Shown: positions 34,640 through 42,210 of the stretch, in pieces
Layout of the letters: every line of letters starts with the position of its first letter
Position numbering within the stretch: the first letter of the stretch is position 1
NCBI RefSeq assembly: GCF_016629565.1
Contig: NZ_AP023057.1
Coordinates: 1,240,001-1,304,000 of the forward strand
DNA: 64,000 bases
Source: Nitratiruptor sp. YY08-10
GTDB lineage: Bacteria; Campylobacterota; Campylobacteria; Campylobacterales; Nitratiruptoraceae
Direction: 5' to 3'
The notes under the pieces: model-generated
Database searches by the model: none
What the model was told of the DNA's origin: nothing
What the model saw: only the letters and a program-made list of their open reading frames with translations
Program-made: the position numbers and the translations under genes

Positions 34640-35350
34640 ATGCAAGAAAATTTGCCGATATATACAATCGAATCAACACGAGAACTCCAGATAGAGCAAA
34701 TAGGGAAATTTTTCTTTACGCATAACGACTTTGCACCAATACAGCTTCATGAGCAGCATGACAAATACGCTATATGGAAGGTTCTTCCACACTCCAATGC
34801 AAAGTTTCTTCAGCAAAACATCTGCAGAACGGTTGTAATTGAAGTGCAATCTACAATCGCCCTTTCTTTCACAGCCAAGATCGAAATGGTCTGGGAGTTT
34901 GGTGATATCCGTTATATCCGTTTGCCGCATACAGACACCATAGAATATCTGTATCACAGAAAAACTCCTAGAGTTTTTCTTGGGTCCAAAGGGCTTTTGA
35001 AAATACTTTCACAAAATGGCGTTCATCCTATGTACGTCGTGGATATTATCGATATATCCGAAGGTGGAGCAAAAATAAAAATAGATGAACCAATTACAGC
35101 AAAGAATATTAATCTCTCATTTCGAGTTTTAGATAAAAAAATATCTTTGGATGGCTACGTTTTAGGCTCCACTACGATAAATGACCATAGATATTACAAT
35201 ATTGCATTTACCAACATACGACAGATGGACAAACTCTTTTTAGAAAAACTAGTATACAGTAGATTGAAAGCAGATACACATGGTGGCTTACCTTCCTGGC
35301 TAACTTTATATGAGGTACCGTACCATGAGTTTATACCCAACAAATATTAA
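34640..35350 (+). CDS. PilZ-domain protein, tandem copy 1 (putative c-di-GMP receptor)
   Basis: A 236-residue soluble protein. The C-terminal PilZ domain shows both c-di-GMP-binding motifs: RKTPR (RxxxR, R107-R111) and DISEGG (DxSxxG, D138-G143). Residues 1-95 form a beta-rich domain in the position of the YcgR-type N-terminal domain. The segment RLPHTDTIEYL just before the RxxxR motif is shared with copy 2. It follows the tRNA cluster and overlaps copy 2 by about 25 bases. It presumably senses c-di-GMP to control motility, pili or a surface process; the target is unknown. Confidence 0.8.
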   Translation: MQENLPIYTIESTRELQIEQIGKFFFTHNDFAPIQLHEQHDKYAIWKVLPHSNAKFLQQNICRTVVIEVQSTIALSFTAKIEMVWEFGDIRYIRLPHTDTIEYLYHRKTPRVFLGSKGLLKILSQNGVHPMYVVDIIDISEGGAKIKIDEPITAKNINLSFRVLDKKISLDGYVLGSTTINDHRYYNIAFTNIRQMDKLFLEKLVYSRLKADTHGGLPSWLTLYEVPYHEFIPNKY

Positions 35351-35984
35351 TACAATACACAATTCGAAAAATATACCCATCAGTACAAAAGCAAAATTTT
35401 ATTTAGATTCCCATCATTTTATTCCCGTACAACTTTGCAAAAAAAATGAACATCACAATTTTTGGAAAATCTTATATCACAAAGAGAACCACGCTATTGG
35501 AATCAATACATTTGGAAGAATAATTATCCACTTATCACCTTTATCGGCTACCGCAATTTCTGCTACTATCAAAAATATATATAAATTGGGAAAAGACAAG
35601 ATTATAAAAATCCCTCACACTAGTACCATAGAATATCTTTCACAAAGAAGCTATCCCAGAGTCGAAGTGGATATTTCAGCCCTTCTAGAAAGAACGGATA
35701 GAGTGCTTAAAACACTCTATTGTGTCACTATCGTAGATATTTCCTATAAAGGAATCAAAATCTTCCTTGATGACTCCATACTGGACGCAAACTATCCAAT
35801 TTTGTTACGCTTTAAGCTAGATAATTCATCAATCGAATTTACAGGGAAAATCGTTTCACAGGAGAAATTTGAGGATGGGTGTTTCTATAGCGTAGTTATT
35901 ACAAAAATAGACCCCTACGGGCAATTTTTGATCGACAAGTTTATCCAAACATATATGCATAAAGAGATCAAATCCAACAAATAG
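35325..35984 (+). CDS. PilZ-domain protein, tandem copy 2
   Basis: A 219-residue paralogue of copy 1 with the same plan: N-terminal beta domain, KIPHTSTIEYL, then RSYPR (R108-R112) and DISYKG (D138-G143), both c-di-GMP motifs intact and at nearly the same residue numbers as in copy 1. Elsewhere the two differ widely, so the duplication is old. The ATG at 35325 has GAGG nine bases upstream; an ATG at 35310 is possible but lacks this. It converges on the Nudix gene with six bases between. Confidence 0.8.
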   Translation: MSLYPTNINTIHNSKNIPISTKAKFYLDSHHFIPVQLCKKNEHHNFWKILYHKENHAIGINTFGRIIIHLSPLSATAISATIKNIYKLGKDKIIKIPHTSTIEYLSQRSYPRVEVDISALLERTDRVLKTLYCVTIVDISYKGIKIFLDDSILDANYPILLRFKLDNSSIEFTGKIVSQEKFEDGCFYSVVITKIDPYGQFLIDKFIQTYMHKEIKSNK

Positions 35985-38357: not shown

Positions 38358-39023
38358 TTGCAAAAAGCGTCTGTTTTACTGCTCGAAGATGATATCAACC
38401 TTGCCGAAACCATCAAAGAGTATCTTGAAGATGAGGGATATAACGTAGATGTGGTTCATACATCGAGTGATGCAATGGACAATATCTATGAAAAACATTA
38501 TGATATTTTGCTTTTCGATGTCATGGTTCCTGGAATTGACGGTTTTGAGCTTCTAAAAAAGATAAGAGAAAAAGAAGAGACTCCGGCAATCTTCATCACT
38601 TCGCTCGACAGTGTGGAAAACCTCGAAAAAGGGTTCGAAAGCGGAGCCGATGACTATATCAGAAAACCTTTTGCTTTGAAAGAGCTGAAAATCAGAATGG
38701 AAACACTCTTAAAAAGAAGTTTCGAAACCAAAAACGATCGCATACCAATCGACAAAAACATCTTCTATGATATCAAATCAAATCAACTTTTCATCAACGA
38801 TCAGTCTGCAAACCTCAACCAAAAGGAACTGCGTTTATTAAAACTTTTTTTGCAACATCCAAATGAAGTACTCAGCCATGATACAATCTATGAACATCTT
38901 TGGGATTATGAAGAGACGCCGAGCGACATGGCACTTCGAACCTATATAAAAAATCTTCGAAAATATATAGGAAAAGAGCGGATAGAAAGCATCAAACGAC
39001 ATGGTTACAAATTTATCAAGTGA
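38358..39023 (+). CDS. OmpR/PhoB-family response regulator
   Basis: A 221-residue transcription factor. The receiver domain has the acidic pair E10-D11-D12 in LLLEDDINLAE, the phosphorylated D54 in LLFDVMVPGIDGF, the switch Ser/Thr in FITSLDS and the lysine in IRKPF. The winged-helix DNA-binding domain covers about 125-221 (LNQKELRLLKLFLQHPNEVL). The start is TTG at 38358 with AAGGAG five bases upstream; an in-frame ATG at 38328 lies upstream of this site. It overlaps the kinase gene by 23 bases. Its own target may be the direct repeat upstream of the cytochrome genes. Confidence 0.92.
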   Translation: MQKASVLLLEDDINLAETIKEYLEDEGYNVDVVHTSSDAMDNIYEKHYDILLFDVMVPGIDGFELLKKIREKEETPAIFITSLDSVENLEKGFESGADDYIRKPFALKELKIRMETLLKRSFETKNDRIPIDKNIFYDIKSNQLFINDQSANLNQKELRLLKLFLQHPNEVLSHDTIYEHLWDYEETPSDMALRTYIKNLRKYIGKERIESIKRHGYKFIK

Positions 39024-40173
39024 GAAAAAAAGTCTTTGGAACTTTCTGCTGCTTTATATATTTTTGACTATTATCATTTTGACATTGGCTTCTTTTACCT
39101 ACTATCGATTTGAAAAAGAGTTGATGCTCAATTCCCATCTTCCCAAACTGCATACCTACGCCAAATATGTCATCACCCGTATCAGACAGATGCACAAAAG
39201 TCTTCTGGAGGACAACTACTATCCAAGATACTCCAACTTCAACTCCGCAATCTACGATGCGGATTATGAAAAGATCTTTTCCTTGCTGAAAAATGAATCG
39301 ATCGATTTCAAACATATGCTTTATAAAAAGGGAAAATATATCTATTTTATAAAAGAGCCAGAACTCTACTATCTTGGAGCAAAATACGTGATTATAGAAA
39401 TGAAAGATGATGAAGCGTGGCTCTTTTCGGTATATAGGAACATAACGCTGTTTGGTTTACTCTTTCTTCTTTTTATGGCTGGACTCGGATATTATCTGGT
39501 AAAACTCTTTTTAAAACCGATGAAAGACTCCATCATGCTTTTAAACAATTTCATCAAAGATACAACACATGAATTGAACACTCCTGTCAGCACCATATTG
39601 ACCAATATAGAAACACTCAAAGATAGTTCATTTGATCAAAAGATGAAACGCAAGATAGAACGTATTGATATAGCGGCACGGACGATATCCACCATTTATG
39701 AAGATCTCTCCTATCTCTTGCTGCGAGATAAAATTCCATCAACAATAGAAAAAATCAATATGAATGAACTGTTACAGCAACGCATCGACTACTTTAAAAC
39801 ATTGGCCGATTCAAAAAAAATTAATATTGTATTTAATCCTGTCCAGCAATGTTTCCTAAATGCAGATAAAAAAAAGATAGCAAGACTGATCGATAATCTG
39901 CTCTCCAATGCTATCAAATACAATAAAATAGGTGGAAAAATCTTTATCACTACAACTCCCAACAGTTTTACGATCGAAGATACTGGAATCGGCATACCAC
40001 CAGACAAACTCCATTATATATTTGAACGTTACAGCAGGCTCCAAAGTAGTGAAGGCGGCTTTGGTCTTGGCCTCAATATCGTTGATATGATCGCCAAAGA
40101 GTTTCACCTCACACTCGATATCCAATCAAAACCGGATCAATTTACAAGGATAACCGTACGATGGCAAAAATAG
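39001..40173 (+). CDS. Sensor histidine kinase
   Basis: A 390-residue membrane kinase. One helix at about 12-34, a periplasmic sensor region of about 110 residues, a second helix at about 148-171, then HisKA with H190 in DTTHELNTPVSTIL. The ATPase domain has the N box IDNLLSNAIKYNK, DTGIGIPP and GGFGLGLNIV. It phosphorylates the overlapping response regulator. No PAS or HAMP domain is obvious. Its last 13 bases overlap the start of a small c-type cytochrome gene, which suggests a redox or heme-related signal. Confidence 0.93.
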   Translation: MVTNLSSEKKSLWNFLLLYIFLTIIILTLASFTYYRFEKELMLNSHLPKLHTYAKYVITRIRQMHKSLLEDNYYPRYSNFNSAIYDADYEKIFSLLKNESIDFKHMLYKKGKYIYFIKEPELYYLGAKYVIIEMKDDEAWLFSVYRNITLFGLLFLLFMAGLGYYLVKLFLKPMKDSIMLLNNFIKDTTHELNTPVSTILTNIETLKDSSFDQKMKRKIERIDIAARTISTIYEDLSYLLLRDKIPSTIEKINMNELLQQRIDYFKTLADSKKINIVFNPVQQCFLNADKKKIARLIDNLLSNAIKYNKIGGKIFITTTPNSFTIEDTGIGIPPDKLHYIFERYSRLQSSEGGFGLGLNIVDMIAKEFHLTLDIQSKPDQFTRITVRWQK

Positions 40174-40490
40174 TTTTTATTTTTTTGATACAAATCGCAC
40201 TTTTTTCACAAACGCTCTTTGATAAACGGTGCATACCTTGTCACCAAAAGAAACACATTGATCTTAAAGCTATTTATTTTAATTATATTTTATATCACTC
40301 AAGCAAATCAAGAACCCTAAAAGCCATACGAAAGTTTCTTCTTCATCCAGACCCCAAAAAATCGCTACTTCCTTATGATTATAAAAAAAGAACTAAAGGT
40401 GTATACAAGCACAAAATAAAAGAAAAAGAGCTCGAAAAGGCATTAGAAATCTATTGGACTCGATATACTGTTATTGGTAAAATCAGATAG
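40161..40490 (+). CDS. Small periplasmic c-type heme protein encoded in the sensor-kinase operon
   Basis: A 109-residue protein with a signal peptide (about 1-17) and one CxxCH heme-attachment site, CIPCH at 24-28, immediately after the predicted cleavage. The rest is lysine-rich and helical with no recognisable distal methionine motif, so the second heme ligand is unclear. It overlaps the kinase stop by 13 bases and so is co-expressed with it. It may be an accessory heme sensor for the kinase; this is inference from position. Confidence 0.8.
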   Translation: MAKIVFIFLIQIALFSQTLFDKRCIPCHQKKHIDLKAIYFNYILYHSSKSRTLKAIRKFLLHPDPKKSLLPYDYKKRTKGVYKHKIKEKELEKALEIYWTRYTVIGKIR

Positions 40491-40491
40491 T

Positions 40492-40513
40492 TCACAATTG
40501 ACTCACAATTGTG
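40492..40513. promoter_or_regulatory. Direct repeat TCACAATTG x2 at 11-bp spacing, candidate response-regulator site
   Basis: TCACAATTG at 40492-40500 and again at 40503-40511, start to start 11 bases, one helical turn. The second copy extends to the palindrome CACAATTGTG (40504-40513). A TACAAT -10 candidate follows at 40517-40522. OmpR-type regulators commonly bind such tandem sites; the regulator gene is 1.5 kb upstream. Confidence 0.5.
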
Positions 40514-40549
40514 TTTTACAATACCAATACATTCATGAAGGAGGCGAGA

Positions 40550-40873
40550 ATGAAAAAAATCGCAAGCATTATCTTCGCAGCAATGCTCGGAGCAAGCTTT
40601 GTCAGTACCGCAGCATTTGCAAGTCCAGAGAAAGGACAGAGAATCTACCAAAAGAAACTTAAAAAAGTGTGTGGATTCAACGGAGCAAAATTTGCTGCAA
40701 AACATACGCAAGATGAGTGGGAAGAGATCCACGATGCAGGAAAATTTGAAGATGAGATCCAAAAACTGTGCCCTAAATATAAAAAAGGGTATTTGAAAAA
40801 ATCTCAACTTGAAAATGTATACGATTTTGCATACGAGTATGCAAGCGACAGCGGTAACGTACCAAGCTGTTAA
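40550..40873 (+). CDS. Periplasmic protein of a cytochrome-associated family, lacking a heme motif
   Basis: A 107-residue protein with a clear signal peptide (cleavage after AAFA, residue 24). The mature part has three cysteines (C41, C74 and the terminal C107) but no CxxCH. It contains GFNGAKFAAKHTQDEWEEI, with a single conserved-looking His, and ends YASDSGNVPSC. AGGAGG lies before the ATG at 40550. It is followed 30 bases later by cytochrome c553, so it probably works with it in periplasmic electron transfer or metal handling. Function is not assigned. Confidence 0.78.
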   Translation: MKKIASIIFAAMLGASFVSTAAFASPEKGQRIYQKKLKKVCGFNGAKFAAKHTQDEWEEIHDAGKFEDEIQKLCPKYKKGYLKKSQLENVYDFAYEYASDSGNVPSC

Positions 40874-40903
40874 TCAAACCAATCTTAACCAAAGGAGGAA
40901 AAC

Positions 40904-41203
40904 ATGAAAAAATTGGCAGTACTAGGACTTGCGGCAGCAACAGCAGTAACACTAATGGCAGCAGACGGAGCGGCACTTTATAAAAAATGTGCAGGATGCC
41001 ATGGAGCACATGGTGAGCGAAAAGCACTTGGTAAATCTGAAGTGATCAAAGGTTGGCCAAAAGCGAAAGTTGTTGAAGCACTTAAAGGCTACAAAGCTGG
41101 AACAAGAAACGTTCATGGAATGGGCGGTCTTATGAAAGCTCAAGTTGCTGCGCTCAGCGATGCAGATATCGAAGCTATCGCTGATTATCTCTCTAAGCAG
41201 TAA
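40904..41203 (+). CDS. Monoheme cytochrome c553-type protein
   Basis: A 99-residue class I cytochrome c. Signal peptide about 1-20, heme site CAGCH at 29-33, distal methionine probably M73 or M77 in HGMGGLM, and the C-terminal helix DADIEAIADYLSKQ. This is the size and layout of the soluble c553 that carries electrons to terminal reductases in this phylum. Strong AAAGGAGG precedes the ATG. It ends at a strong terminator. Confidence 0.93.
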   Translation: MKKLAVLGLAAATAVTLMAADGAALYKKCAGCHGAHGERKALGKSEVIKGWPKAKVVEALKGYKAGTRNVHGMGGLMKAQVAALSDADIEAIADYLSKQ

Positions 41204-41739: not shown

Positions 41740-42210
41740 ATGAAAAAAATGGTTCTTTTATTACTTCCGATTCTGTTTTTCGCCATAGCGTATAGTCTAC
41801 GAACCTATAAAAGTAGCGATAAAATCATCGTAAAACGACAGCAAAAAGATACCCATGTACGTATCGATCCAAACTGTACAAGTTGCTTTGAAAAATATAT
41901 AGAAAAAGTAATCAATGAAGGATCAAACATCTTTCACTACCCTTCAGGCCCTATGCCAGGAGGCACCGTATCTGCTGAAGATGCGAAAAAAATAGCCGCA
42001 TTTCTAGCAACCCTGCAAGGCTTTAAACCAAGCCATCCCGAATGGGTCCAAGAGGGCAAATACCTTTTCTATGGCAACTGCATCGGGTGCCACAGCAATG
42101 GTGGCAAAGGTCAAAAGGGATACTTTCCCGATTTGACCCGAAAACCTCTACTGGGAATCGAGATGCTCAGTCAAAAAGGATATGGTACAATAGAAAAAAG
42201 GCAAAGGTAG
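41740..42210 (+). CDS. Membrane-anchored c-type cytochrome with one intact and one degenerate heme site
   Basis: A 156-residue protein anchored or exported by an N-terminal hydrophobic stretch (4-19). A first cytochrome-like segment has CTSCF at 46-50, where the heme-binding His is replaced by Phe, followed by MPGGTVSAEDAKKIAAFLA, which looks like the end of a cytochrome c domain. A second segment starts with an intact CIGCH at 114-118 but stops after about 38 more residues. The frame continues in phase after the TAG stop (42208-42210) into the next ORF, which begins SMPEDFS, a plausible distal-methionine segment. Confidence 0.8.
   Translation: MKKMVLLLLPILFFAIAYSLRTYKSSDKIIVKRQQKDTHVRIDPNCTSCFEKYIEKVINEGSNIFHYPSGPMPGGTVSAEDAKKIAAFLATLQGFKPSHPEWVQEGKYLFYGNCIGCHSNGGKGQKGYFPDLTRKPLLGIEMLSQKGYGTIEKRQR

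Follow-up and report, generated by a model that had tools for sequence, protein, structure and literature searches.

Positions 38358-41203 of the window (the whole 64,000-nucleotide stretch of Nitratiruptor sp. YY08-10 DNA that was analysed) hold, on the + strand, a gene cluster that, judged by comparison with its relatives, is a real, conserved regulatory circuit in which a known kind of switch is combined with an unusual, separate putative heme partner and a predicted regulon. An OmpR-type response regulator, a histidine kinase and a small CxxCH protein, here called P3, probably constitute a sensory operon that acts via a box on the genes for a heme-less protein, P4, and cytochrome c553, as well as on envelope genes, with P3 as the stand-alone heme subunit of the sensor. 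The regulator (38358-39023), which starts at a TTG codon and comprises a receiver and a winged helix (PF00072, PF00486; start and stop codons checked), overlaps by 23 bp the open reading frame of the membrane histidine kinase (39001-40173), which has HisKA and HATPase_c domains (PF00512, PF02518); all four models score above their cut-offs, and the pair is thus an OmpR-type two-component system. The kinase frame in turn overlaps by 13 bp that of P3 (40161-40490), a secreted protein of 109 amino acids that is the proposed heme subunit, so that regulator, kinase and P3 form one overlapping operon. It is followed by a direct repeat, by the first predicted target gene, which encodes P4 (40550-40873; 107 amino acids, secreted, without CxxCH), and by the gene for cytochrome c553 (40904-41203; 99 amino acids; PF00034, PF13442), which is probably co-transcribed with P4. 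P3 and P4 match no Pfam or NCBIfam model at the cut-off. An earlier, sequence-only reading of this DNA had described a kinase gene overlapping the gene of a 109-residue monoheme protein, and a repeat lying upstream of a heme-less protein and cytochrome c553, and this is the arrangement found, with exactly one CxxCH in P3 (C24, C27, H28).

The repeat, TTCACAATTGA-CTCACAATTG (40491-40511, + strand), has a period of 11 bp and is the predicted box of the regulator; within it, TCACAATTG occurs at 40492-40500 and again at 40503-40511, and the spacing and placement right after the heme protein gene had been reported correctly. TACAAT (40517-40522, + strand), the predicted -10 hexamer, follows the 20-bp box (40491-40510) at a distance of exactly 6 bp, so that TTCACAATTGACTCACAATTG is located 3' of P3, 6 bp ahead of this hexamer and upstream of P4 and c553. 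A search of the 1.82-Mb genome, as the sequence-only reading had suggested, found the exact pair to be unique, with a single one-mismatch copy at G000:C1:394209. Five exact 9-mers are repeated at 10-12 bp spacing in the window, against a mean of 0.75 under a first-order Markov null; an exact 9-bp repeat at such spacing is not rare by itself, and the window alone gives it no significance. Moreover, because CAATTG is a palindrome, a direct and an inverted repeat look the same in the window, and it is the relatives, with TTCACRAT-N3-TTCACRATT, that show the orientation to be direct. A matrix trained on the sites of the triad loci (regulator, kinase and P3), one training row of which (L106) ended before its -10, gives the window site, itself part of the training set, a score of 39.4 versus 3.1 for the second-best position in the window. 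In the own genome, a loose scan allowing up to three mismatches was uninformative (69 matches versus 57 in the reversed control).

The significance of the repeat comes from its conservation rather than from window statistics. P3 is present in 75 of 149 relatives, and 50 P3 loci from these genomes were fully read. The kinase adjoins P3 in all 50 and a regulator is detectable in 48, while the box TTCACRAT-N3-TTCACRATT, or a near variant, lies directly 3' of P3 in 41; relatives with the same gene order have thus kept the repeat that the sequence-only reading took for a regulator's target. In 38 of these 41 sites, a -10-like hexamer, TA[ACGT]A[AC]T, follows the box at exactly 6 bp. A chance match, for which the excess of repeated 9-mers in the window might be quoted, is contradicted by such conservation with fixed -10 spacing, and its probability is practically negligible. 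Nine of the 50 loci were recorded as lacking the site, among which L132 is an artefact (the region was cut at an ATG inside the site, which is present in that genome's locus) and L151 has the box ahead of the next P4 copy (L024). The box was not seen 3' of P3 in the f9 loci L140, L143 and L147, nor in L139 and L152. Where P4 is missing, the box precedes c553 instead (L134, L135, L141, L145, L146, L148, L149, L150, L221).

The box also follows its genes when they move. In two congeners, P4-c553 has been relocated away from the kinase locus (L097/L098, L099/L100); the relocated genes retain the box, and the kinase loci L097 and L099 retain P3 without it. Several genomes have second copies of P4 elsewhere (the protein is identical in G002, G004 and G008), and at all eight of those scored (L101, L107, L110, L112, L116, L118, L120, L122) the box is absent, with scores below 0. 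Because relocated copies keep the box and second copies lack it, it appears to be a promoter element of the regulated copy and not baggage of P4. A box score of at least 15 was obtained for 39 of the 41 P4 genes that belong to a triad or have been relocated, and among 10 further P4 genes distant from the triad, one (L201) reaches this score and another (L202) has a box with the -10 shifted by one base. Autoregulation was considered as well and is unsupported, as a matrix score of at least 8 was reached in only one of 48 regulator upstream regions (L106, 14.5).

Genome-wide, a scan of the 149 genomes for box plus hexamer with at most one mismatch gave 156 matches in 79 genomes versus 22 in 19 for the reversed pattern. 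Matches occur in 69 of the 75 P3-bearing genomes (six have none) versus 10 of the 74 without P3, the reversed control giving 10 and 9; the genomes are related, and these counts are not 149 independent events, for which reason no probability is attached to them. This distribution bears on the proposal that the repeat is the box of some other regulator, either an orphan of the HP1043/CosR type or a paralogous OmpR-type protein, and that its proximity to the kinase is coincidental. There are many OmpR-type regulators per genome (17 matches in G000), and, according to the available part of the source, HP1043 (HsrA) of Helicobacter pylori binds 11-bp direct repeats that replace the -35 box at promoters including that of c553 (PMC5253667). 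The likeness lies in the type of regulator (OmpR), in a pair of direct repeats 11 bp apart that occupies the -35 position and in c553 as a target, here a predicted one. However, HP1043 is an orphan without a kinase, its half-site is TTTAAG with a 5-bp spacer, and the accessible portion of that paper mentions no heme protein gene with it (PMC5253667). Here, a kinase is adjacent and the box is TTCACRAT-N3-TTCACRATT, not TTTAAG-N5-TTTAAG, which sets the system apart from the HP1043/HsrA-CosR orphans. The pattern tracks P3, the half-sites differ, and those second P4 copies that lie near a paralogous regulator-kinase pair (L101, L107, L110, L116) have no box, all of which makes control by another regulator highly improbable. 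The link between the OmpR-type regulator and the repeat, as first suggested, thus gains comparative support, the repeat being the predicted box of the adjacent regulator.

A second known system to compare is DccRS of Campylobacter jejuni, which resembles the present pair in being an OmpR-type system with periplasmic and membrane protein targets, a handful of whose genes it activates, as far as the portion of the source at hand goes (PMC9449129). A match to P3 was absent in ten genomes of family f11, which by inference is Campylobacter, although a further f11 genome (G398) did give a match. In two g26 genomes, the best match to the regulator is only 30% identical and lies beside an HtrA-like protease gene. 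The DccR box is reportedly a TTCAC direct repeat, which would be a further likeness; its printed sequence was not found in our literature search.

The predicted regulon extends beyond P4-c553. The second box of the own genome (L002, G000:C1:394208-394766) precedes a 162-residue glycine-zipper 2TM envelope protein (PF05433), and when orthologues of this protein were gathered regardless of the box, a promoter box was present in 16 of 16 congeners, with matrix scores of 18.6 to 31.7 and p 0.003 each, the lowest value that 300 mononucleotide shuffles allow. Beyond the genus, the box at this promoter is patchy (three of the 14 rows not selected by box; L195 and L204 were selected by it, and L307 was not cut at the correct start). 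Genes 3' of the pattern matches encode mostly exported proteins: P4, c553, the glycine-zipper protein (PF05433), a YidB-like protein (PF20159), another monoheme cytochrome, SoxY, DUF2202, helix-hairpin-helix (ComEA-like) and thioredoxin-like proteins, and lipoproteins. Since these loci were selected by the pattern, the target list in other families is a prediction only; in two of 40 pattern-selected stretches no gene had a ribosome-binding site, and several matches (L351, L352, L365, L370) precede genes of other kinds. In the own genome, among the two-mismatch matches inspected (L260-L265), only L264 scored well (26.8); its box and hexamer (G000:C1:1579482-1579501) lie 147 bp ahead of a secreted-looking protein that resembles a TonB-dependent receptor by eye only, its first 75 residues having no Pfam match. 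In family f7, an extra box followed by TTTCATGG recurs (L197, L200, L372) with no convincing downstream gene. Control of periplasmic electron carriers, which the sequence-only reading had put forward, agrees with the box upstream of such carriers; as a description of the circuit it is too narrow, the predicted regulon being envelope-wide.

P3 is an unusual component of the system. All 50 sequences have a hydrophobic N-terminus and a single CxxCH, and the remainder of the protein is divergent, apart from a few near-invariant residues (Y42, S47, S48, P63, Y98 and W99 in window numbering). No conserved second axial ligand, Met or His, was found across the 50; Met occupies a GLMP-like position in the rows of family f4 and in L135, and the count of 11 LMP motifs in the alignment includes two rows with Met elsewhere. 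Because the structure model is poor (pLDDT 64; best Foldseek E 5.5), neither the fold of P3 nor its interface with the kinase can be derived from it. A profile search across the phylum detected P3 in 124 of the 397 genomes sampled, representing 36 of 68 genera; among the matches listed, all are within the same order. In a selection of 20 loci from the weaker P3-like matches, 19 genes lie directly 3' of a kinase, 15 of them with a detectable regulator, and three of the other four are cut by contig ends; no c553 match at 1e-8 was found in the stretches around them.

It could be argued that the regulator controls the box but that P3 is no more than a neighbour in the operon, with an electron-transfer or structural role: it would pass electrons in the periplasm or assist cytochrome maturation without any part in signalling. 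P3 is, after all, secreted, carries CxxCH and lies next to P4 and c553, its f4 members keep a GLMP motif as in ordinary cytochromes, and its wider relatives match Cytochrome_CBB3/Cytochrom_C. Nonetheless, the departure of P4-c553 leaves P3 beside the kinase (L097, L099), the weaker P3-like genes adjoin kinases with no such c553 match nearby, and a conserved second axial ligand is missing, so that this role appears unlikely. Of the earlier suggestion that the small heme protein is an accessory sensor, the association with the kinase is borne out comparatively, and the sensing itself is our inference.

The history of the regulator is consistent with such an association. In the tree, the regulators that go with P3 fall into a single clade (UFboot 95, SH-aLRT 87; recovered in 96% of bootstrap trees), and a single gain of P3 followed by inheritance would be the simplest reading of this tree. 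The clade adjoins the regulators of f16, and then those of f11 and f14; in several loci of these types, a gene for a DUF1104 or similar small secreted protein lies upstream of the regulator. Such DUF1104-type genes, whose product is possibly a CpxP-like partner, were also noted upstream of related regulators in L388, L398 and their neighbours and in L139, L140 and L150, in some loci behind a weaker box. In addition, many genomes contain paralogous regulator-kinase-CxxCH triads with a different P3 subfamily (L418-L436).

In enterobacteria, the two-component pair CpxRA works with CpxP, a small protein of the periplasm, and controls envelope genes; cpxP is itself induced by Cpx. The present cluster shares this pattern, with predicted envelope targets, and it may be asked whether it is a Cpx-like envelope-stress system, with envelope damage as the input, P3 as a CpxP-like modulator of the kinase and heme as a secondary matter. 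The predicted targets are indeed mostly exported (PF05433, YidB PF20159, lipoproteins, thioredoxin-like, SoxY, DUF2202), and a DUF1104 gene precedes related regulators that lack P3 (L388, L398). However, the most constant targets are c553 and P4, the CxxCH of P3, a feature that distinguishes it from CpxP, is invariant, and P3 is not itself behind a box, unlike cpxP, and we consider this explanation rather unlikely. In model searches, regulator and kinase fall far short of the Cpx cut-offs (CpxR, 106.3 bits versus a cut-off of 341; Legionella CpxA, 70.5 versus 800).

P4 has three conserved cysteines, of which C41 and C107 are invariant and C74 is nearly so, and the absence of CxxCH from all 22 aligned sequences means that it does not carry the motif of a c-type cytochrome. 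Its structure model is better (pLDDT 80), and each of the nine proteins matched by Foldseek either is a c-type cytochrome or includes a domain of this kind, although the matches are weak (Foldseek E 1.7 to 8.6; VIA Z up to 5.5). It is thus likely, as far as the model goes, that P4 is a cytochrome that lost its heme. For P3 and P4, no sequence relative in the PDB was found below E 0.07. The possibility that the two are one family was rejected, as they share no profile similarity.

If P3 is the heme subunit of the sensor, it would be exported, receive covalent heme and serve the kinase in the periplasm as a separate subunit that either senses or modulates. The signal would probably be the redox or ligand state of this heme, reporting the condition of electron transport or of the envelope. 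A dimer of the phosphorylated regulator would then bind both TTCACRAT half-sites, which are spaced by one turn of the helix at the -35 position, and recruit RNA polymerase to the -10 hexamer 6 bp downstream, an architecture read from conservation. Because the box stands in place of the -35 beside a -10, activation is favoured, as for HP1043. The regulator would thereby turn on P4-c553 together with the glycine-zipper envelope protein encoded at another site in the genome, and in other families of the order it may also turn on other periplasmic and lipoprotein genes.

Extracytoplasmic sensing with c-type heme is represented by sCache_heme (DUF3365/Tll0287), which, in the part of the source available, is often stand-alone, has some members with NO-sensor properties and is common in Campylobacterota (PMC12889525). 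P3 would resemble it in an extracytoplasmic c-type heme used for sensing and in the stand-alone form but is tied to a kinase gene and matches no DUF3365 model (four sequences, P3 or P3-like, gave no such Pfam match at E up to 1). A bolder reading, which we regard as a tentative and doubtful possibility, is that P3 is the first of a family of c-type heme proteins with an open site that serve kinases across the order as stand-alone sensor subunits; the kinase would read the gas bound or the redox state (NO, sulfide or oxygen) at a separate periplasmic heme and drive an ancient regulon of electron carriers, a heme-less cytochrome and envelope proteins. If the circuit works as proposed, kinases would have a further means of sensing the periplasm, a separate c-heme subunit, and P3 and P4, two families without a Pfam or NCBIfam model at cut-off, would gain a role. 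The cluster provides bacteria related to C. jejuni with a conserved candidate sensor that has a predicted heme input, box and regulon; for C. jejuni itself, a review reports, in the portion available, no known oxygen-responsive regulator and no known signal for its respiratory regulators (PMC6682613). A literature search, with most subscription papers outside it, returned no description of the regulator-kinase-P3 triad.

Two further features of the window may be mentioned. At 34640-35984, two neighbouring open reading frames of about 230 residues look alike by eye and are possibly a tandem duplication. At 41740-42210, a secreted cytochrome gene encodes a first motif that reads CTSCF, with no His, and a second that reads CIGCH, and a thioredoxin gene adjoins it on the opposite strand.
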